Shown piece by piece: positions 18,331-59,724 of a DNA stretch of 64,000 nucleotides; positions within the stretch are counted from its first letter, which is position 1; the number at the start of each line of letters is the position of its first letter. The position numbers and the translations under genes are program-made. The notes below the pieces were generated by a model. The model did no database searches. It saw only the letters and a program-made list of their open reading frames with translations, and was not told the origin of the DNA. The DNA is from an uncultured Pelagibacteraceae bacterium (GTDB lineage Bacteria; Pseudomonadota; Alphaproteobacteria; Pelagibacterales; Pelagibacteraceae): positions 1-64,000 of the forward strand of contig CABZGO010000006.1 in the NCBI GenBank assembly GCA_902525355.1, given 5' to 3'.

Positions 18331-19324
18331 TTCGACCTGCCGAATGTAATTTAGGAGACAGTCTAACCTTATCCATAATATGATCTATTTTTTTTACATC
18401 CGCATCTCTTACACACATATTTTCGCTTAAATATCTTTTCCAGTGGCTTGAACCTGTTTGTCCATGGAATAAACCTAGTGTATGTCTCATAACTTGATTT
18501 ACTCTTGTACCCATTTGTACTTGATCTTTAACATAATTAATCAACTCCTCAACAATTTCCTCCCGTTTTTTAATATCATGGTTATTGAATATCTCTTTTT
18601 CAATATCAGCTAAAAGGTAAGGAGAATGATAAACAGATCTTCCAATCATTGCACCATCTACTTTATCTAAATGATCTTTTAATTCTTCTATTGAAGTTAC
18701 TCCACCGTTAATTATTATTTCTAGATCTTTAAAGTCTTGCTTTAAGTTATATACGTAATCATACTTTAGAGGAGGTATGTTAAGATTTTGCTTGGGTGTA
18801 AATTTACCTAGCATAGCTTTTCTTGCATGTATTATAAAAGTTTTAACTCCAGTATCTTTTAAAGTTTTTATGAAATTATAAAAATGTTCGTAATCTTCTA
18901 CATTATCATAACCAATTCTAGTCTTAACTGTAACTGGCAAAGACGTTGAATTAATCATTTCTGATAAACAATCAGCCACTAAAGATGGTTCCTTGATTAA
19001 ACATGCGCCAAATCTATTTTTTTGAACTTTTTTACTTGGACACCCTAAATTTAAATTAATTTCGTCATATCCATAATCTTCACCAATTTTGGCAGAGTTT
19101 GCCAATAATTTTGGAGTGGAACCACCTAATTGTAAAGCGACAGGTTTCTCTCTTAAATCAAATGATAATAGCTTGTCTTTATCACCTCTATCAATTGCCT
19201 CTGAAACAACCATTTCAGTGTAAAGCAGAACATTTTTACTAATTAGTCTTAAAAAGTATCTTTCGTGTCTATCAGTGCAATCCATCATAGGGGCAACTGA
19301 TACCAATCTATTAATTTTAGACAT
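18323..19324 (-). CDS. dusA: tRNA-dihydrouridine(20/20a) synthase
   Basis: An FMN enzyme that reduces uridine 20/20a in the tRNA D-loop. It shows SVAPMMDCTDRHERYF, LQLGG, NLNLGCPSKKVQKNRFGACL with the catalytic cysteine, TVKTRIGYD and MIGRSVYHSPYL, which together mark DusA rather than DusB/C. The ORF track begins at 19369, but the family start corresponds to the internal Met at 19324 (MSKINRLVSVAPMMD). That start overlaps the malonyl-CoA decarboxylase stop by 8 bases, which fits this genome's packing. Protein length is then 333. Confidence 0.93.
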   Translation of the reverse strand: MSKINRLVSVAPMMDCTDRHERYFLRLISKNVLLYTEMVVSEAIDRGDKDKLLSFDLREKPVALQLGGSTPKLLANSAKIGEDYGYDEINLNLGCPSKKVQKNRFGACLIKEPSLVADCLSEMINSTSLPVTVKTRIGYDNVEDYEHFYNFIKTLKDTGVKTFIIHARKAMLGKFTPKQNLNIPPLKYDYVYNLKQDFKDLEIIINGGVTSIEELKDHLDKVDGAMIGRSVYHSPYLLADIEKEIFNNHDIKKREEIVEELINYVKDQVQMGTRVNQVMRHTLGLFHGQTGSSHWKRYLSENMCVRDADVKKIDHIMDKVRLSPKLHSAGRID

Positions 19325-20624
19325 GTTTTTTAACTTTATTTGAAATATTAACTTTCTTTTCGTTAACATACTCTTGGTGATTTTTCTCGATTTTTGCTAA
19401 CTCGTATCTATAGTTAACCATGACACCAAAAGACCTTTTAAAACCAACTTCAGAAATATTTGCATTCACTGCAATGTCATCAATATCAGCTCCATTTTTT
19501 AAATGAAATCTACAAACGTCATTTATTGGAAATCCAAAATCATTTTTTTGTTTTACTAAATAGTTTACTGCTAGCTTACTTATCAAAGCCTTATTGTCGG
19601 CAATTCTTTTGTCTCCTATTTTTAAATCGGAAGACTTTAAAAAATCTAAACTATTTTTGTTTGCCTCACCAAGAATTTCAGCGGCTTGAGCACTTTCCAT
19701 TTTTTTAAACCATTTGGCAAAACCAACCATTGGTGATAAGGTTCCAAAATATTTTACATCTGGAAGTTCTTCTTGAAGTTCATAAACAACTCTTTTTATT
19801 AAAAAATTTCCTAACGTTACTCTTGACAAACCTTCTTGACAATTACTGATTGAATAAAAAGTTGCTGTATCATAATTTATTATTTTTTCCTCTGAGGGTC
19901 TTGTTAATTCTTGTATTGACTGACCAAGACCTTTTGTTAGAGCAATTTCAACAAATATTATTGGTTCATCATCTAATGCTGGATGAAAATATGCAAAAAA
20001 TCTTCTATCTTTTCCAAGTCTTCTTTTAAGTTCATTCATATCTTTCATGGAATGTACTTTTTCGTACTTTAATAATTTTTCTAAAATATTGGCTTTTGTA
20101 TCCCATGTAATTTTTTTTAATTTTAAAAATCCTGGGTTAAACCAATTTTTAAATATATCAATTAAGTCATAATCTAAACTTTTAACTTCAGGATTTTCTT
20201 TTATTAAGTTTAATAAATCTTCTCTCAAGGAGACTATCTCCGATGTGCCATTTGGAGCCATATTTAGTCTTACAAATAGTTCTTTTCTTACTCCTGATGT
20301 AACTCTAGATAGATTTAAGATAGATGAAATATCTTTAGATTTGCTGTAACTTTTAATTGCTTCATCTATTTTTACTGAGTCAGGTTTATACTTATCATTT
20401 ACTTGAATTAAAAATTTATATTTGTCCTCTGTAGATAAGTTTTGATATCTGAACAAGATATCTCTTGCTAATGTTATTCCAAAGGCCGCACCTTTAGTTG
20501 ATAATAAATCATCACAAAGATCTATAAGATCTCTTTTTTTTGTAATACTTTTGATAGATTTTTTTTCTAAAATTTTTTGTCCAGCATCAGCTATAGTTTC
20601 AAAAATTCTTTTTATATTTAACAT
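19317..20624 (-). CDS. Malonyl-CoA decarboxylase
   Basis: Converts malonyl-CoA to acetyl-CoA and CO2. The sequence (435 residues) has the helical N-terminal domain and the GNAT-like catalytic domain of the MCD family, seen in EPIIFVEIALTKGL, TFYSISNCQEGLSRVTLGN and FGTLSPMVGFAKW. The catalytic His/Ser region FSIS is kept. It lies 15 bases downstream of a TRAP operon (dctPQM), and a class III CoA-transferase is divergent from that operon. This suggests a malonate-uptake and activation module (inference). A role in controlling malonyl-CoA for fatty acid synthesis is the alternative. Confidence 0.92.
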   Translation of the reverse strand: MLNIKRIFETIADAGQKILEKKSIKSITKKRDLIDLCDDLLSTKGAAFGITLARDILFRYQNLSTEDKYKFLIQVNDKYKPDSVKIDEAIKSYSKSKDISSILNLSRVTSGVRKELFVRLNMAPNGTSEIVSLREDLLNLIKENPEVKSLDYDLIDIFKNWFNPGFLKLKKITWDTKANILEKLLKYEKVHSMKDMNELKRRLGKDRRFFAYFHPALDDEPIIFVEIALTKGLGQSIQELTRPSEEKIINYDTATFYSISNCQEGLSRVTLGNFLIKRVVYELQEELPDVKYFGTLSPMVGFAKWFKKMESAQAAEILGEANKNSLDFLKSSDLKIGDKRIADNKALISKLAVNYLVKQKNDFGFPINDVCRFHLKNGADIDDIAVNANISEVGFKRSFGVMVNYRYELAKIEKNHQEYVNEKKVNISNKVKKHV

Positions 20625-20639
20625 GGTGTTTTTTATATA

Positions 20640-21971
20640 TTAAAAACCTAGGCTTTTGCCCATTATTTTATCAGGCAGCCAGGTAACAATTTCAGGGAAA
20701 ATGCACAATATTAATATAGCTAAAGCCATAATTATCATAAATGGAATAGATCCTTTTAATATTTCTGACAAACTTACATCTGGAGTAATACCTTTAATTA
20801 TATATAGATTTAATCCGACAGGTGGGGTAATAAGACCAATTTCCATATTTATAGTAAATACAATTGCAAACCAATATGGGTCAAATCCCAAGGTAGTTAT
20901 TACTGGTAATAATATTGCTGAGGTCATAACGATAACAGCTACCGGTGGTAAAAAGAAACCAGCTATTAATAAGAAAATATTTATTAATATAAATACTACC
21001 CATTTGTTAGAGCTTAACTCAACCATGCTCTGTGCTAATGATTGCGTCACATAAAGTTGGGATAATGTAAAAGCAAAAAGATAAGAGGCAGCAATGATAA
21101 ACATTATCATTACACTTTCCTTCATCGAAACTTTAACAATATTCCAAATCTTTTTTGGTTGATAAATTTTGTACACTACAGCGATCAATACAAAAACCAA
21201 GAATGCTCCTACACCTGACGCCTCTGAAGGTGTCGCAACTCCTCCGTATAGAACATACAAGACGCCAGCTATGATTGCTAAAAAGGGAAGAATTCTTGGT
21301 AATACTTCAATTTTTTCTTTGAAGGTTGGAGGGGTTCTATTTTTAAGTGCTTTTGCTGAATCCTTATCTATAAAATAACTATGTATAAGTGCCCACATTG
21401 CAAACATGCCTGCCAACATAAATCCAGGCACCAAACCACATAAAAATAATCTTCCAATTGATGTCCCCGTTGCTATTCCGTAAACAATTAAAACAATGCT
21501 TGGAGGAATTAAAACTCCTAGAGTACCTCCAGCAGCTATTGTTCCAGTTGCTATTTGATCTGAGTAACCTCTTTTTCTCATTTCAGGAATACCCATTGTT
21601 CCAATTGCTGCACATGTTGCAGGGCTTGATCCACTTAAAGCGGCGAAAACAGAGCATGCTCCAATATTAGATATTACCAATCCACCTGGAACCCTCCAAA
21701 GCCATCTATCTAATCCAGTGTATAAATCTTTTCCTGCAGGTGAATTAGCAACTGCCATTCCCATCAAAATAAACATTGGTATTGAAAGTAGAACAAAAGA
21801 ATTGAGACCTGCATAAAATGTTTCCGCAAAGACATCTAACATTTGAAATCCTTCAAATGCTACCAAAAGAGCTATAGAGACAAAGCTTAATCCAAATGCA
21901 ATTGGTATACCTGAAAATAAAACTATTAGTGTAAAAACTGCAACAATTACTGCTATTAATAAAGGGTCCAT
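20640..21971 (-). CDS. dctM: TRAP transporter large membrane subunit
   Basis: DctM forms the ion-coupled channel of a tripartite ATP-independent periplasmic transporter. The 443-residue protein has about 12-13 hydrophobic segments. Family markers are IPMFILMGMAVANSPAGKDLY, GSSPATCAAIGTMGIPEM, GTLGVLIPPSIVLIVYG, and LITPPVGLNLYIIKG near the end. The start overlaps the dctQ stop by 1 base, and malonyl-CoA decarboxylase follows after 15 bases, which suggests malonate or a related dicarboxylate as substrate. Confidence 0.93.
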   Translation of the reverse strand: MDPLLIAVIVAVFTLIVLFSGIPIAFGLSFVSIALLVAFEGFQMLDVFAETFYAGLNSFVLLSIPMFILMGMAVANSPAGKDLYTGLDRWLWRVPGGLVISNIGACSVFAALSGSSPATCAAIGTMGIPEMRKRGYSDQIATGTIAAGGTLGVLIPPSIVLIVYGIATGTSIGRLFLCGLVPGFMLAGMFAMWALIHSYFIDKDSAKALKNRTPPTFKEKIEVLPRILPFLAIIAGVLYVLYGGVATPSEASGVGAFLVFVLIAVVYKIYQPKKIWNIVKVSMKESVMIMFIIAASYLFAFTLSQLYVTQSLAQSMVELSSNKWVVFILINIFLLIAGFFLPPVAVIVMTSAILLPVITTLGFDPYWFAIVFTINMEIGLITPPVGLNLYIIKGITPDVSLSEILKGSIPFMIIMALAILILCIFPEIVTWLPDKIMGKSLGF

Positions 21972-22465
21972 TAATTATTATCCTCCTCATCAAAAAGTTT
22001 AATAATTTCAGCAATGTATTGAAGTATCATTAAAGCAGCACCGATCATCATAGATGAATAAGGTATCCATAAAGGGGGGTCCCAAACTGTTCCTGTTGAA
22101 TAATTTTTGGTAAAAGCTTCTTCGACCATGAGAAATCCAAAATAGAATAAAATTAAAAAAAATAATAAACTTATTAATGAGGTAAATATTTTAAGTCTTA
22201 AGATATTTTTTCTTGATAAAAAATCATATATCCATTCCATGCTAACATGAGCTTTTTCACTTAAAACATATGCACTTCCAATAAAAGTTGAAGCAACTAG
22301 CAACATTGTAACTAATTCTGTCTGCCATGTGATTGCTCTTTGAAAAAAATATCTTTCAAAGACAAGTTCCACAATTACTAAAATAGATAATATTAAAGCT
22401 AAAACAGCAAAAGCACCGCATGCTTTTGATGATAAATTGCAAAATTTTAAATATTTTTCTTTCAT
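21971..22465 (-). CDS. dctQ: TRAP transporter small membrane subunit
   Basis: DctQ-type protein of 164 residues with four hydrophobic segments and the family pattern AITWQTELVTMLLVASTFIGSAYVL and HVSMEWIYDFL. It supports the large subunit in the inner membrane. Its ATG lies immediately behind a terminator-like hairpin that follows the binding-protein gene. The only Shine-Dalgarno-like bases (AGGGG) are inside the 3' arm of that hairpin, so expression should be low relative to dctP unless the structure opens. Confidence 0.9.
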   Translation of the reverse strand: MKEKYLKFCNLSSKACGAFAVLALILSILVIVELVFERYFFQRAITWQTELVTMLLVASTFIGSAYVLSEKAHVSMEWIYDFLSRKNILRLKIFTSLISLLFFLILFYFGFLMVEEAFTKNYSTGTVWDPPLWIPYSSMMIGAALMILQYIAEIIKLFDEEDNN

Positions 22466-22470
22466 AAAAA

Positions 22471-22499
22471 AACCCCTATTTAATTTTTAAATAGGGGTT
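22471..22499 (-). terminator. Intergenic terminator/attenuator hairpin between dctP and dctQ
   Basis: Perfect 12-base-pair inverted repeat, AACCCCTATTTA / TAAATAGGGGTT with a 5-base loop. On the minus strand it is followed by five more T (seven with the stem end), then directly by the dctQ ATG. It has every feature of an intrinsic terminator, but the operon continues, so it probably attenuates. The 3' arm also holds the only AGGGG that could act as the dctQ ribosome site. Confidence 0.85.
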
Positions 22500-22514
22500 C
22501 TTTATATATCTTTT

Positions 22515-23525
22515 TTATTTAACTGCCAAAGCCATTTCCATCAGCTTATCGCCACCTGGAACTTTTTCAGCAAATGCTTTGTGTGAAGATTGTTTAGCTA
22601 TCTCAACCCATGCTGCGTGATCATTAGCATCCATATATACTAATTTTACTCCTGCTGCTTTATAAGCGTCTTCAAATTTTTTATCTAAATTTTCGACTTG
22701 CGCAGTCATATATTTTTCAGCAACTTTACCAGCTTTCATTAAAGCATCTTGTTGTTTTGAATTTAGTTTATCAAAACTCATTTTTGACATCAAAATTGGC
22801 TCATACATAAACCACAACCCAAATTTTCCTGGAGGTGTTGCACATGATACTTGCTCATAAATTTTATAACTTACAAAACTTCCAGAACTAGTATTTGCAC
22901 CTGTTAGTACTCCAGTTTGTAATCCGGTATAAATTTCTGAGGAAGGCATGCTCTGAATACCAGCACCAGCTGCTTCTAACATTTGGTTAAATGCTTTTCC
23001 AGCTGCTCTCATTACTTGTCCTTTAGCATCTGATGGATTTTTGATACATTTTGACTTTGATGCAAAACCGCCACCAAGCCATGCATCAGATAAAACGACA
23101 ACACCAGCATCATTAATAATTCTTTTAATCTCAGTCATCATTGGACCTTTATTAAATCTTAATGCATGATCATGGTTTTTAACTGTTCCTGGCATTAGAG
23201 TTGCATCAAATTCAGGATGAAATTTAGATGCATAAGCTAATGGAAATGCAGAAATATCTAACTGACCAGTTGTCATTGGTTTCCATTGTTCTTTTGGTTT
23301 ATATAATGATTTTGCTGGATAAATTCTAATATCTAAATCTACCCCTGCCTTTTTAACTTCATCAGCAATTATTTGAACCATTTCATGTCTTGGATCATAA
23401 GAACCATCAGCTCTAGGTGTCCCTGGCCATTGGTGACTTGCTTTGAGTGTAACAGCATATGCCGATCCAATTAATGAGAAAGCTAAAAATAATGTTGTGA
23501 AATAAAAACTTATTTTTTTAAACAT
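22515..23525 (-). CDS. dctP: TRAP transporter substrate-binding protein
   Basis: Periplasmic DctP-type receptor of 336 residues. A signal peptide ends near residue 24 (GSAYA before VTLKASHQW). The family core includes YPAKSLYKPKEQW, QVMRAAGKAFNQML with the conserved arginine that clamps a carboxylate, and AEKYMTAQVENLDKK. It is the first gene of dctPQM-mcd. The ribosome site GAGGG is strong. The substrate is probably an organic acid, and malonate is suggested by the malonyl-CoA decarboxylase downstream (inference). Confidence 0.92.
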   Translation of the reverse strand: MFKKISFYFTTLFLAFSLIGSAYAVTLKASHQWPGTPRADGSYDPRHEMVQIIADEVKKAGVDLDIRIYPAKSLYKPKEQWKPMTTGQLDISAFPLAYASKFHPEFDATLMPGTVKNHDHALRFNKGPMMTEIKRIINDAGVVVLSDAWLGGGFASKSKCIKNPSDAKGQVMRAAGKAFNQMLEAAGAGIQSMPSSEIYTGLQTGVLTGANTSSGSFVSYKIYEQVSCATPPGKFGLWFMYEPILMSKMSFDKLNSKQQDALMKAGKVAEKYMTAQVENLDKKFEDAYKAAGVKLVYMDANDHAAWVEIAKQSSHKAFAEKVPGGDKLMEMALAVK

Positions 23526-23612: not shown

Positions 23613-24755
23613 ATGGATGGACCACTAAAAAATTTATTAGTTGTTGATTTAACAAGGGTTTTGGTAGGACCTTATTGTACTATGATACTTTCAGATTTAG
23701 GCGCGAGAGTTATAAAAATTGAAGCACCTGAAACAGGTGATGATTCTAGAAAATTTGGACCTTTTGTTAAGGATTACTCTGCATACTTTATGTCATTAAA
23801 TAGAGGGAAAGAAAGTATAGCTTTGAATTTAAAGAATGATGAGGACAAAGAAATTTTTGATAAAATTCTATCTAAGGCAGATATTTTAGTAGAAAATTTT
23901 AAGCCTGGAACATTAGACAAATGGGGTTTTGGTTGGAAAGACGTAAATAAAAAATACCCTAAATTAATTTATGCATCAGCATCAGGATTTGGCCAAACTG
24001 GACCTTTAAAAGAGCTGCCTGCATATGACATGGTCGTTCAAGGTATGGGTGGTTTGATGAGTGTTACTGGTCATCCCAATTCTGAACCAACAAGGGTAGG
24101 AACTTCTATCGGTGATATTACTGCAGGTTTATTTACAGCAATTGGAATAAATGCAGCTTTATATGATAGACAAAAAACAGGAAAAGGATCATTCATAGAT
24201 GTGTCTATGCTAGATTGTCAAATAGCAATTTTAGAAAATGCAATTGCAAGATATCTTTCCAAAAATGAAATTCCAGAACCCATGGGTTCAAGACATCCTT
24301 CTATTGCTCCCTTTGAAGCTTTTAAAACAAAAGATAGTTACATAATTATTGCTGCAGGAAATGATAAACTTTTTGGAAAACTTTGTGAAGTATTAAAAAT
24401 TCCAGAAACTACAAATGATGAAAGATTTAATTCAAATTCGTTAAGATGTGAAAACATGAATCAATTAAAAGAAATTTTTGAAAAACAGTTAAGTTCAAAA
24501 TCTACAAATGAATGGATAAGAGAAATGGAGGCATTGAAAATTCCATGTGGACCAATTTTTAACATAAAACAAGCTGTAGAAAATCCTCAAATTAAAGAAA
24601 GAAATATGATTGTAAAATCTTACCACAAAATTATTGGTGAATTTAAATCTGCAGGAAACCCAATTAAAATGTCCACCTATAAAGATGAAACTACTAGGGG
24701 TAATATTCCTGATTTAGATGAGCACAGGGAAAAAATAATTAAGGAATTTACTTAA
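23613..24755 (+). CDS. Class III (CaiB/BaiF) CoA-transferase
   Basis: A 380-residue family III CoA-transferase. It has the N-terminal VVDLTRVLVGPYCTMILSDLGA, the active-site aspartate D168 in TSIGDITAG (equivalent to D169 of formyl-CoA transferase), and the ENFKPGTLDKWG and RQKTGKGSFIDVSM segments. These enzymes move CoA between carboxylic acids. It is divergent from the TRAP-malonyl-CoA decarboxylase operon across 87 bases, so it may activate the imported acid (for example succinyl-CoA plus malonate). That is inference: family III substrates cannot be read from sequence. Confidence 0.9.
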   Translation: MDGPLKNLLVVDLTRVLVGPYCTMILSDLGARVIKIEAPETGDDSRKFGPFVKDYSAYFMSLNRGKESIALNLKNDEDKEIFDKILSKADILVENFKPGTLDKWGFGWKDVNKKYPKLIYASASGFGQTGPLKELPAYDMVVQGMGGLMSVTGHPNSEPTRVGTSIGDITAGLFTAIGINAALYDRQKTGKGSFIDVSMLDCQIAILENAIARYLSKNEIPEPMGSRHPSIAPFEAFKTKDSYIIIAAGNDKLFGKLCEVLKIPETTNDERFNSNSLRCENMNQLKEIFEKQLSSKSTNEWIREMEALKIPCGPIFNIKQAVENPQIKERNMIVKSYHKIIGEFKSAGNPIKMSTYKDETTRGNIPDLDEHREKIIKEFT

Positions 24756-46576: not shown

Positions 46577-47548
46577 TTATTTTTTTTTTATATTTGAATA
46601 TAACCAAGGACAATCAATTAACAATGGAGCTTGTTTTCCTTGAGAAGCAGTTTCTAGTCTTTTATTTCTAAATTTCATTCTCTCATCATCAGGTAAATAA
46701 AGTCTCTCGTGCCCCCAAAAACTAGGTCCCTCAAATGTTTCAATTGGCTCCCATGTGTCCGGATTAATAATCCTCCCACCCCATCCATTTTCAATAAAAA
46801 ATCCTGAAGGTGTAATTGAATAAAATGAAGTCATATAATCATTGGTATGCCGTCCCATTGTATAAGCAATTGCATTATCCTTGTATTGTAACAAGTCATA
46901 ACCTTGACCTACATCGTCTAGGTTATTGTATTCAACCATAAAATGATGGAAACCAGTTCCACCTGAACCAAATAAAGCTAAACTATGATGTCTGCCGTTA
47001 ACATGAAAAAAGCATAAAGATATTGGAGTATGACTATAATCACTTATCTTGAAACCCATTACATCTCTGTAAAATGGAATTAAATCATCAATATTTTTAA
47101 CATGTACAACTGCATGTCCCATTCCTAGTGCCCCAGTCTTAAATCCTGAAATTGGCCTACCTGGTTTAAAAGGATCTGTATCTAACATAGGCTTATAAAC
47201 GAGTTCAATGCGATTACCTTGTGGGTCGTTAAAATATATTAAATCTTCAACAAAACGTTTGTCAGCAAAAGAAGTCTTTCCATGATTTACTACTATTTTA
47301 TTTTCTTCTAATTTATTTGCAAAAGTTTGAAGATCTTCCTTGTTCTCAACTTCCCATCCTAAAAATCCTAATCCATCTCCTTTTTCACCAGTTATTGTTA
47401 ACCTTTGTTTTTGGTCATCCATTCTAAAAGATAAAATTTCTTTTCCATGGTCTATCTGTTGCATACCAAGGTATTTTTGAGAATATTCTGACCAATCCTC
47501 AAATTTATCTGAATTAACTCCAATATAACTTAAAGCTTTTACCGCCAT
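46577..47548 (-). CDS. Type I extradiol ring-cleavage dioxygenase (two-domain VOC)
   Basis: A 323-residue enzyme with two vicinal-oxygen-chelate domains. The iron ligands of BphC-type dioxygenases are present in the C-terminal domain: H145 (GMGHAVVHV), H202 (GFHHFMVE) and E253 (FFIENGWG). The catalytic second-shell residues match too (RHHSLALF, GRHTNDYMTSFY). It should cleave a 2,3-dihydroxyaryl compound next to its hydroxyls using Fe(II) and O2. With the hydroxylase gene after it and a TRAP binding protein and FAH hydrolase upstream, it forms a ring-degradation set. Confidence 0.88.
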   Translation of the reverse strand: MAVKALSYIGVNSDKFEDWSEYSQKYLGMQQIDHGKEILSFRMDDQKQRLTITGEKGDGLGFLGWEVENKEDLQTFANKLEENKIVVNHGKTSFADKRFVEDLIYFNDPQGNRIELVYKPMLDTDPFKPGRPISGFKTGALGMGHAVVHVKNIDDLIPFYRDVMGFKISDYSHTPISLCFFHVNGRHHSLALFGSGGTGFHHFMVEYNNLDDVGQGYDLLQYKDNAIAYTMGRHTNDYMTSFYSITPSGFFIENGWGGRIINPDTWEPIETFEGPSFWGHERLYLPDDERMKFRNKRLETASQGKQAPLLIDCPWLYSNIKKK

Positions 47549-47610: not shown

Positions 47611-48624
47611 TTAACCATCTATTTTAGAAATTACTTCTCTTGCTCTTTTTAATACAGCATCTCCATCAAGACCTTTACCTTTCATTTCTGCTAACCAGTC
47701 AGATTCGATTGGAGCCAATATTTTTTTGTATTCAGCTAAAACTGAGTCTGATGCAACAGTTATCTCGTGTCCTGGAGTATTTTCTACTTGAACTCTCATC
47801 TTGGCATTCTGAGTATCAATTAAATTAGATGCCCAATCGCCAAACCATTGACCAGAATGTTTATCAACACATCCTTTTGCTGCTGAAGAAAGACCGTTAT
47901 ATTTCCCCTCATTCATTATTAGTCCAAATGTAGCGTTAGTAATGTTAACTTCTGTGTGATATTTAGTGACATCAAATAATCTAAATGAACCAATTGCAGT
48001 ATACGGGAACGGTGTTCCATCTATAACACCTTTATTTAAGGCTTCTGAAGTCCCTGGTGCTGGTACTTTAACTCCAGTTGCTCCTAAAGTTTTAAGAATA
48101 GTTCCCGCTATTTTGCTTGGAACTCTCATTTTTTTACCTTTAAAGTCTGCGGGCTCAACTACTTTAGTATCCTTCATATGGATTTGATATCCTGGGTTCG
48201 AATGAAGTCCTATCAATTTAATTCCTGCCATTTCTTTATCTAGGTAGCCTTCTTCAAAAAGAGTATTTAAAGCTCTAGATCCAGCTTTTGAAGTTTTGGT
48301 CAAGAATGGTAGTTCTACAACTGAACTTAATGGAAATTGACCACCAATATATCCAAGAACTGTCCAAGATATATCTGCAACACCTGAGGTTACTATATCA
48401 TATTGTTTGGGAGGACTTCCTAATACTCCTCCTGCATACATTTTTACGTTTAAAGCACCATTTGAACATTTGTTAACTTTATCTGCCCAAGCAGCTAAAA
48501 TTTTACTTGCTATAAATGCTTTTGGTGGTTCAAAAGTTGCTAACTTTAATTCTGTAGCTGATGCCGTGCTAATAATGCTTAAGGAAAAAATTCCTATAAC
48601 AAAACCAATTATTTTTTTTTTCAT
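47611..48624 (-). CDS. dctP: TRAP transporter substrate-binding protein (aromatic module)
   Basis: A 337-residue DctP receptor with a signal peptide ending near residue 23 (STASA before TELKLATFE). Family core: KMYAGGVLGSPPKQYDIV, KKMRVPSKIAGTILKTLGA with the carboxylate-binding arginine, and TPFPYTAIGSFRLFDVTKYH. AGAGGGG precedes the ATG. The membrane genes dctQM are not downstream but on the other strand at 49594-51392, beyond an FAH gene. The neighbourhood suggests an aromatic or aryl-derived acid as ligand (inference). Confidence 0.9.
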   Translation of the reverse strand: MKKKIIGFVIGIFSLSIISTASATELKLATFEPPKAFIASKILAAWADKVNKCSNGALNVKMYAGGVLGSPPKQYDIVTSGVADISWTVLGYIGGQFPLSSVVELPFLTKTSKAGSRALNTLFEEGYLDKEMAGIKLIGLHSNPGYQIHMKDTKVVEPADFKGKKMRVPSKIAGTILKTLGATGVKVPAPGTSEALNKGVIDGTPFPYTAIGSFRLFDVTKYHTEVNITNATFGLIMNEGKYNGLSSAAKGCVDKHSGQWFGDWASNLIDTQNAKMRVQVENTPGHEITVASDSVLAEYKKILAPIESDWLAEMKGKGLDGDAVLKRAREVISKIDG

Positions 48625-58175: not shown

Positions 58176-59192
58176 ATGAATAAAACAAAAATATTATCAA
58201 AAAGTTTTGTTAGCTTTTTATTAGTTATTTCATTTGTAATTTCTTCAACTGTAGCTTTTGCTGAGATTGTTGGACGTCTATCTGTTCATTGGAGTCCAAA
58301 ACATCACAGTGCAAAGCATGCTCAAATTTTTGCAGATGAAGTAAATAAAAGAGCAAATGGAAAACTTAAAATCGAGGTGTATCCATCTAAACAACTTTTC
58401 GGAATTAGAGAAGTAATGGGCGCAGTAACTTCAGGAGCTGTTGAATTAGGAGGAATTGTTGGTGTTGTAAGTTTTCCACCAATTAATAAGAACTTTAATG
58501 TTGCCTCTTTTCCTGGACTATTTAATTCTTGGGAACAACAAAGAGGTTTTTTTCAAAATTCTTCAAAAGGAAAAGAAATTTGGGGTGAATTAACAAAAAA
58601 AACAAATTCAACTTTGGTCATGTACAACCCTGTTGGACCTGTAATGTCAATTTCAAGTGCGCGAGAATTAACAGGTATAGATGCTATGAAAGGTCTTAAA
58701 GCTAGAAGACTACTTAAAAGTGAAGAACCTATGTGGGATGCTCTTGGAGCAAACCGTGTATCTTTAAAGACTGGAGAGGTATACAATGCTTTACAGTCTG
58801 GGATGATTGATACGATTAATAGTCCCCCAGGAAGTATTAAAGCTTATAGTTGGTGGGAATTTTTAAAGTACGCACAAAAACCATATCAGTATTATGCTGA
58901 CGCTTATATAATGGCAAATTCTACCTGGTTTAATAGCTTACCAGCTGACTTACAGAAAATAATTATGGATGTTGGTAAAGAAGTGGGAACACTTTCAACA
59001 GACAGAATTATGGATCATGGTGAAACTGTTCTTAAAGAATTCCAAGACAGAGGCGGTGTAGTAACAACTCTTTCAGGAGCTGAGAAAGCAAAATTTGACG
59101 AGTTAATGAAAGATAAAGTTATGCCTGCAATGGCTAAAATGATTGATGCTGATGCTTTAAAAGCAGCACAAGATTACGCAAAAAGTAATTAG
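58176..59192 (+). CDS. dctP: TRAP transporter substrate-binding protein
   Basis: A 338-residue DctP receptor with a long signal peptide (to about residue 29, VAFA before EIVGRLS). Family core: IEVYPSKQLFGIREVMGAV, GLKARRLLKSEEPMWDALGANRVSL with an arginine in the carboxylate position, and NALQSGMIDTINSPPGSIKAYSWWEF. GAGAGGG is a strong ribosome site, similar to the one before the dctP at 23525. dctQ and dctM follow directly. The ligand is unknown. Confidence 0.92.
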   Translation: MNKTKILSKSFVSFLLVISFVISSTVAFAEIVGRLSVHWSPKHHSAKHAQIFADEVNKRANGKLKIEVYPSKQLFGIREVMGAVTSGAVELGGIVGVVSFPPINKNFNVASFPGLFNSWEQQRGFFQNSSKGKEIWGELTKKTNSTLVMYNPVGPVMSISSARELTGIDAMKGLKARRLLKSEEPMWDALGANRVSLKTGEVYNALQSGMIDTINSPPGSIKAYSWWEFLKYAQKPYQYYADAYIMANSTWFNSLPADLQKIIMDVGKEVGTLSTDRIMDHGETVLKEFQDRGGVVTTLSGAEKAKFDELMKDKVMPAMAKMIDADALKAAQDYAKSN

Positions 59193-59220: not shown

Positions 59221-59724
59221 ATGAAAGCGTTGCGAGCAGTTAATAATTTTTTAGCTTCGGCTTCATTAGCTCTCGCAATGTTCATCATTTTTATAATGGT
59301 TGCTGCTTTATTTTTAAGTGCAGCCACACGTTTTATAACTGGAACCGGATTTGCTTGGTTTATAGAATTACCGCCTGTATTAGTTAGTTGGTTAGTATTT
59401 CCATTATTAGGACCTCTTTTAAAAAAAGGACAACATATAAAAGTTGATTTTTTGACTCCTTTATTATCAAAAAAAAATAAGGAGATATTGTTTTTAATTG
59501 TAAATATAGTTGCACTTATATCTGCTTGTATATTCTTTAAAGCTGGTCTTGATGCAACAATCATGTATTTCAATTTAGGTCAAGTAATGGAAATTGAAAT
59601 TAGCATTCCTATATGGTGGATGTTTTTAGCATTCCCTATAGGTTTCTTGATATTAGCTTTAACTTCTTTGGAGTTACTATTCGATAACATTTCAAATTTA
59701 ATAAAAATTAAATGTTTGCATTAG
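59221..59724 (+). CDS. dctQ: TRAP transporter small membrane subunit
   Basis: A 167-residue DctQ with four hydrophobic segments, including ATRFITGTGFAWFIELPPVLVSWLVFPLLGPLLKKGQHIKVD, the family block with KKGQHIKVDFL. The ATG is 28 bases after dctP, with only a weak A+T stem (ATTAGA/TCTAAT, 59188-59217) between. Its end overlaps the dctM start by 13 bases. Confidence 0.88.
   Translation: MKALRAVNNFLASASLALAMFIIFIMVAALFLSAATRFITGTGFAWFIELPPVLVSWLVFPLLGPLLKKGQHIKVDFLTPLLSKKNKEILFLIVNIVALISACIFFKAGLDATIMYFNLGQVMEIEISIPIWWMFLAFPIGFLILALTSLELLFDNISNLIKIKCLH

Follow-up and report, generated by a model that had tools for sequence, protein, structure and literature searches.

A conserved terminator-like hairpin between dctP and dctQ exemplifies a receptor, hairpin and membrane-gene layout across SAR11

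The window analysed here, a 64,000 nt stretch of DNA from an uncultured Pelagibacteraceae bacterium (contig CABZGO010000006.1, positions 1 to 64,000; assembly GCA_902525355.1), carries on its minus strand a TRAP transporter operon of which dctP (22515..23525; PF03480, E 1e-39), encoding a matP-like solute-binding protein (SBP), is the 5′ gene. The dctP reading frame ends in TAA (22517-22515) and is followed on the same strand, after a gap of 49 nt, by the small membrane subunit gene dctQ (21971..22465; PF04290), whose ATG at 22465 is kept in 130 loci, the large membrane subunit gene dctM (20640..21971; PF06808) and, 15 nt past dctM, the malonyl-CoA decarboxylase gene mcd (19317..20624; PF05292 and PF17408). 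The upstream neighbour of the operon is divergent; a family III CoA-transferase gene lies at 23613-24755 on the plus strand, divergent from dctP. The nearest solved sequence to the receptor is 4mco/4mev, which we take to be a malonate complex. Together, dctP-dctQM, mcd and the CoA-transferase gene suggest a malonate-use cluster, by which malonate would be taken up, activated through CoA transfer and decarboxylated.

The dctP-dctQ gap contains a hairpin (22499-22471, minus strand) separated from the dctP stop codon by an AT-rich spacer of 15 nt (22500..22514) that holds TATATAAAG. The 5′ arm AACCCCTATTTAA (22487..22499) and the 3′ arm TTAAATAGGGGTT (22471..22483) enclose an AAA loop (22484..22486), and the base of the stem is formed by G-C pairs (CCCC/GGGG). 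A run of seven T residues (22472-22466), the U tract of the putative terminator, directly abuts the dctQ ATG. The original prediction had the coordinates, the bases and this arrangement of T run and start codon right, as re-reading of the minus strand confirmed; the stem is perfect, as it had stated, although 13 rather than 12 bp long, since the two outermost pairs take up the first two T residues of the run. With a predicted energy of -15.5 kcal/mol, a stable GC-based stem and an adjoining U tract, the element has the sequence features of an intrinsic (Rho-independent) terminator, and it is the top terminator-like site in the 17 kb scanned. Within a 101-nt context the fold reaches -20.0 kcal/mol, compared with -8.8 ± 2.5 kcal/mol for shuffled sequences (z -4.4; none of 200 shuffles was as good), and pairs of the core stem have a probability of at least 0.97 in a 501-nt context.

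We extracted the corresponding gap from 130 loci, the window included, which were found by protein search and, being related, are not independent samples. In every one of them the hairpin is retained together with 5-9 T (7-9 in 119) and a dctQ ATG within 0-3 nt of the T run; the ATG follows without any intervening base in 118 loci, after one base in nine and after three in three. The spacer between stop codon and stem is 14-15 nt long in 121/130 loci and TATATAAAG is conserved within the main clade, while its A-rich extension is not retained in the clade L116-L122. Loop length varies among relatives. Compensatory changes are found in the stem, for example TA/TA to TG/CA and TAC/GTA, AACCCC/GGGGTT to AAGCCC/GGGCTT (L123 and L043) and AACCCC/GGGGTT to TACCCC/GGGGTA (L116-L122). 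Among 26 varied sequences 97.3% of cells are paired and both sides have changed in 6 of the 12 pairs; the covariation score was matched by none of 500 shuffles and the signal was destroyed by sliding the partners. Loss of the stem in close relatives would have spoken against a terminator-like element; its retention in all 130 loci, together with the covariation and the conserved U tract, upholds that reading, and the comparative evidence indicates that the hairpin is under selection as RNA. Loci from the family's other genera (L223-L228) all carry a strong hairpin, but the U tract is missing from three of them (L226, L227 and L228), and farther out in the class an unusually stable fold occurs within the 60 nt after the gene for 14 of 27 dctP relatives.

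The same arrangement recurs after other receptor genes. In a 99%-complete relative (G155), scanned as stretches, no more than 19 out of 925 codirectional neighbour pairs have a terminator-like hairpin between the two genes. Sixteen of these hairpins are strong, and ten of the strong ones sit after an SBP gene (Fisher p 2e-16). These ten genes comprise four DctP, two SBP_bac_3 and one each of SBP_bac_8, Peripla_BP_6, OpuAC and NMT1, and the remaining strong hairpins include those after genes for rhodopsin and outer-membrane proteins and after metK and recA. The hairpin in the dctP-dctQ gap of this genome has a loop of more than 9 nt and internal mismatches, and was detected by an energy-based scan. 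When a T run was not required and gaps of 35-130 nt were considered, hairpins were present in 11 of 13 gaps after SBP genes versus 11 of 148 other gaps (p 1.4e-9), and some of the latter 11 resemble tRNAs. We then surveyed eight SAR11 genomes for five SBP families, using a simple gene caller, a codirectional gene within 130 nt (some downstream gene calls being doubtful in longer gaps) and a cut-off of -12 kcal/mol. These genomes are related and the counts are not independent; hairpins at or beyond the cut-off occupy 58 of the 64 SBP gaps, and 50 of 56 when matP is set aside (30 of them with at least five T). At least four T follow the stem in 41 of the 58, whereas the other 17 have no run of four T. 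At least five T are present in 37, and in 20 of these the run stops 0-4 nt short of the following start codon. The layout is also present in SAR11 ABC operons. The dctP-dctQ hairpin is thus one case of a SAR11-wide arrangement of receptor gene, hairpin and membrane genes, and not a device specific to dctQM-mcd.

Variants of the layout are found elsewhere in the window and among its relatives. A second TRAP-type receptor gene (47611-48624, minus strand) is followed by a strong hairpin, CGAGCCCGCTAATTTCATAGCGGGCTCT (47600-47573), which has only three T after the stem and represents a T-poor form, the next open reading frame (46577-47548) lying 24 nt further on. A third TRAP receptor gene (58176-59192, plus strand) is an exception, in that the 28 nt separating it from the next open reading frame (59221-59724, plus strand) contain no hairpin. 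SBP_bac_3 loci from four genomes (L300-L303) share a conserved T-less hairpin with the core GGCGACT...AGTCGCC, and the hairpin ends no more than about 1 nt from the start codon that follows.

At dctQ the terminator overlaps the translation start. The region from -15 to +3 has a predicted mean unpaired probability of 0.10; the 816 unambiguous starts of G155 average 0.51 and none of them is as low, and the predicted value averaged over 129 relatives is 0.13. Seven T immediately 5′ of an ATG occur at 1 of the 816 starts, and G155 dctQ has this feature. In the predicted fold the A-rich end of the spacer can pair with the T run, and this AAAGAA/U-tract pairing extends to the AUG. Burial of the dctQ start region in the hairpin, as originally proposed, is therefore well supported in silico. 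The accompanying suggestion that AGGGG, the Shine-Dalgarno-like bases of the 3′ arm (22473..22477, minus strand, seven bases 5′ of the ATG), forms the hidden ribosome site fares less well, even though the motif lies at a workable distance from the ATG in 117/130 loci and close variants occur in the rest. Strict Shine-Dalgarno 4-mers precede only about 10% of starts in G155 against a background of 4-5%, and in sister SBP operons, G000 L274 and G155 L131 among them, a T run likewise reaches or comes close to the ATG, with a pyrimidine-rich 3′ arm and no Shine-Dalgarno sequence. A G-rich 3′ arm is moreover found in 5 of the 6 ordinary gene-end terminators available in G155, an equal polarity that led us to reject selection of this arm for Shine-Dalgarno function. 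Since such motifs are rare in SAR11, are lacking from the sister operons and a G-rich 3′ arm is generic, the case for AGGGG as the dctQ Shine-Dalgarno is weak, though at its distance from the ATG it may still have some role. SAR11 genomes are compressed, which is why the dctQ ATG comes straight after the U tract, and compaction explains the overlap of terminator and start codon with no selection for translational control being required.

The element is likely to be a constitutive, leaky intrinsic terminator that sets an excess of receptor over the products of dctQM-mcd. As polymerase leaves dctP, the hairpin would form 15 nt downstream of the stop codon, and in most cases release would follow at the U tract, yielding a dctP message that ends in the hairpin and would be shielded from 3′ exonucleases. 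A minority of polymerases would read through to produce the dctQM-mcd message, so that the receptor would greatly outnumber the transporter; in this read-through RNA the dctQ start region would be folded into the hairpin, either as a by-product or as a second, weak brake. The sequences support the logic of the receptor excess proposed at the outset, the ratio itself being what we infer from it. Of the suggested control at both transcription and translation, the terminator part stands, and the predicted burial may add a translational brake.

It is highly improbable that the hairpin marks a true operon end, with dctQM-mcd a separate unit served by its own promoter. The strong terminator shape would suit such an end and TATATAAAG, 5′ of the stem, is similar to a -10 element, but a scan for sites listed no strong promoter-like site at the dctP-dctQ gap. 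The T run touches the ATG, in 118/130 loci without a spacer, and no promoter could serve dctQM-mcd unless its transcript crossed the hairpin: one upstream of the terminator would still have to pass it, and the -10 box of a leaderless transcript beginning with the ATG would fall in AGGGGT. We therefore rejected a dctQ promoter, and the dctQM-mcd message must be either read-through or a full-length message trimmed later. The latter would apply if the hairpin were a barrier to mRNA decay alone, with even transcription of the operon, cleavage downstream and a 3′ exonuclease halting at the hairpin to leave a stable dctP mRNA. Decay has been described as the source of excess SBP mRNA in the case of malE and a further four ABC operons (PMC5927463), and the hairpin outlasts the U tract, being T-less at matPQ in L226-L228 and at 17 of the 58 SBP gaps. 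A decay barrier needs no T tract, yet 5-9 T are kept at the stem in all 130 loci, and we consider decay alone an unlikely explanation. Leaky termination accords with these T runs, although the T-less hairpins imply that termination is not the sole function of the class, and the T-less SAR11 members suggest that protection of the 3′ end is part of the job and perhaps its older part.

About equally doubtful, if not slightly more so, is a regulated double lock, in which the hairpin hides the dctQ start until it is opened by some factor, by temperature or by a ribosome upstream, which would turn on dctQM-mcd. The modelled inaccessibility of the start, which is extreme relative to G155 and holds on average across the 129 loci, speaks for such a lock, as does the pairing that reaches the AUG. 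Against it, this A-rich pairing is not kept in L116-L122, and Shine-Dalgarno use is weak in the group, whose terminators ordinarily have a G-rich 3′ arm. The stem begins 14-15 nt past the stop codon, just outside the footprint of a terminating ribosome, which would thus presumably not melt it. A permissive E-value search against Rfam gave no family at gathering score, only sub-threshold, chance-like matches, and we rejected a riboswitch or other known RNA family accordingly. An attenuator was also rejected, as there is no aptamer and no antiterminator or competing fold was found in the 501-nt context. The proposal of a regulated switch for the membrane and decarboxylase genes is left unsupported by these searches. 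A broader idea, that SAR11, with few regulators, have receptor excess built into almost all their uptake operons through a two-level hairpin combining leaky termination with a next start folded into the terminator, such that a 49-nt gap would set both transcript and protein ratios, is somewhat less improbable than the lock, and we put it forward only tentatively.

SAR11 cells depend on binding solutes that are scarce, and at least one of their solute-binding proteins, PotD, often ranks with the most abundant proteins detected. There are few explanations, to our knowledge, of how receptor comes to exceed transporter by far in genomes with few regulators. The survey offers a simple, testable one, in that nearly all the receptor genes checked are followed by a fixed hairpin: most transcription probably stops after the receptor gene, giving more receptor than transporter. 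A literature search covering non-subscription papers found none on a hairpin rule for SAR11 SBP genes or on the dctP-dctQ hairpin.

The device is of a known type, to which TRAP operons and SAR11 can now be added, and it is the breadth rather than the mechanism that is notable. Wu et al. (2022; PMC9045158) used Northern blots and reporters to show that internal terminators set SBP/translocator ratios in clostridial ABC importers, and reported that, in clusters with a 5′ SBP gene, 87% of the gaps longer than 50 bp contain a stem-loop. As in the internal terminators of Ruminiclostridium cellulolyticum, the SBP gene comes first, the SBP-translocator gap holds a stem-loop of -10 kcal/mol or better (-15.5 kcal/mol here) with a U-rich tail, and an excess of SBP message is predicted. 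In contrast to that class, the present operon encodes a TRAP rather than an ABC system (PF03480/PF04290/PF06808), belongs to an alphaproteobacterium, has a perfect U tract of seven and, where gaps over 50 bp were studied there, has a gap of 49 nt in which the next ATG abuts the U tract. By analogy, the dctP-dctQ hairpin probably works like this class, extended to TRAP transporters. In ABC operons of Escherichia coli that are regulated by decay, Dar and Sorek (PMC5927463) showed that it is always the SBP gene that is stabilised. Differential decay of malE-malF mRNA likewise gives more SBP message than membrane-gene message from one operon, as predicted here, but those operons were chosen to lack an intrinsic terminator, whereas the U tract at dctP-dctQ is conserved. 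The rhtB-type element of Candidatus Pelagibacter ubique (Meyer et al. 2009, PMC2704228) is also a single covarying SAR11 hairpin, followed in about half of cases by 6-9 U and sometimes located near liv transporter genes; it is bulged, with a conserved loop and bulge, unlike the matPQ hairpin, which has a variable loop and no bulge. Overlap of a terminator with the start region is shared with ribosome-binding-site-sequestering hairpins and terminator attenuators, the expression platforms of riboswitches, from which the dctP-dctQ hairpin differs in that no aptamer, alternative fold or known ligand was found.

Strong intrinsic terminators are scarce in a genome such as G155 and lie mostly inside transporter operons. 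Twenty with at least six T follow a gene in this genome (L131-L196), and 14 of these lie before a codirectional gene, which suggests that operons ordinarily end in some other way. An internal terminator after a non-transporter gene is also present in G155, where a bacteriorhodopsin-like gene (L155, 14937-16109; PF01036) is followed by a hairpin of -20.9 kcal/mol with nine T and, 20 nt past it, a 2Fe-2S ferredoxin gene.
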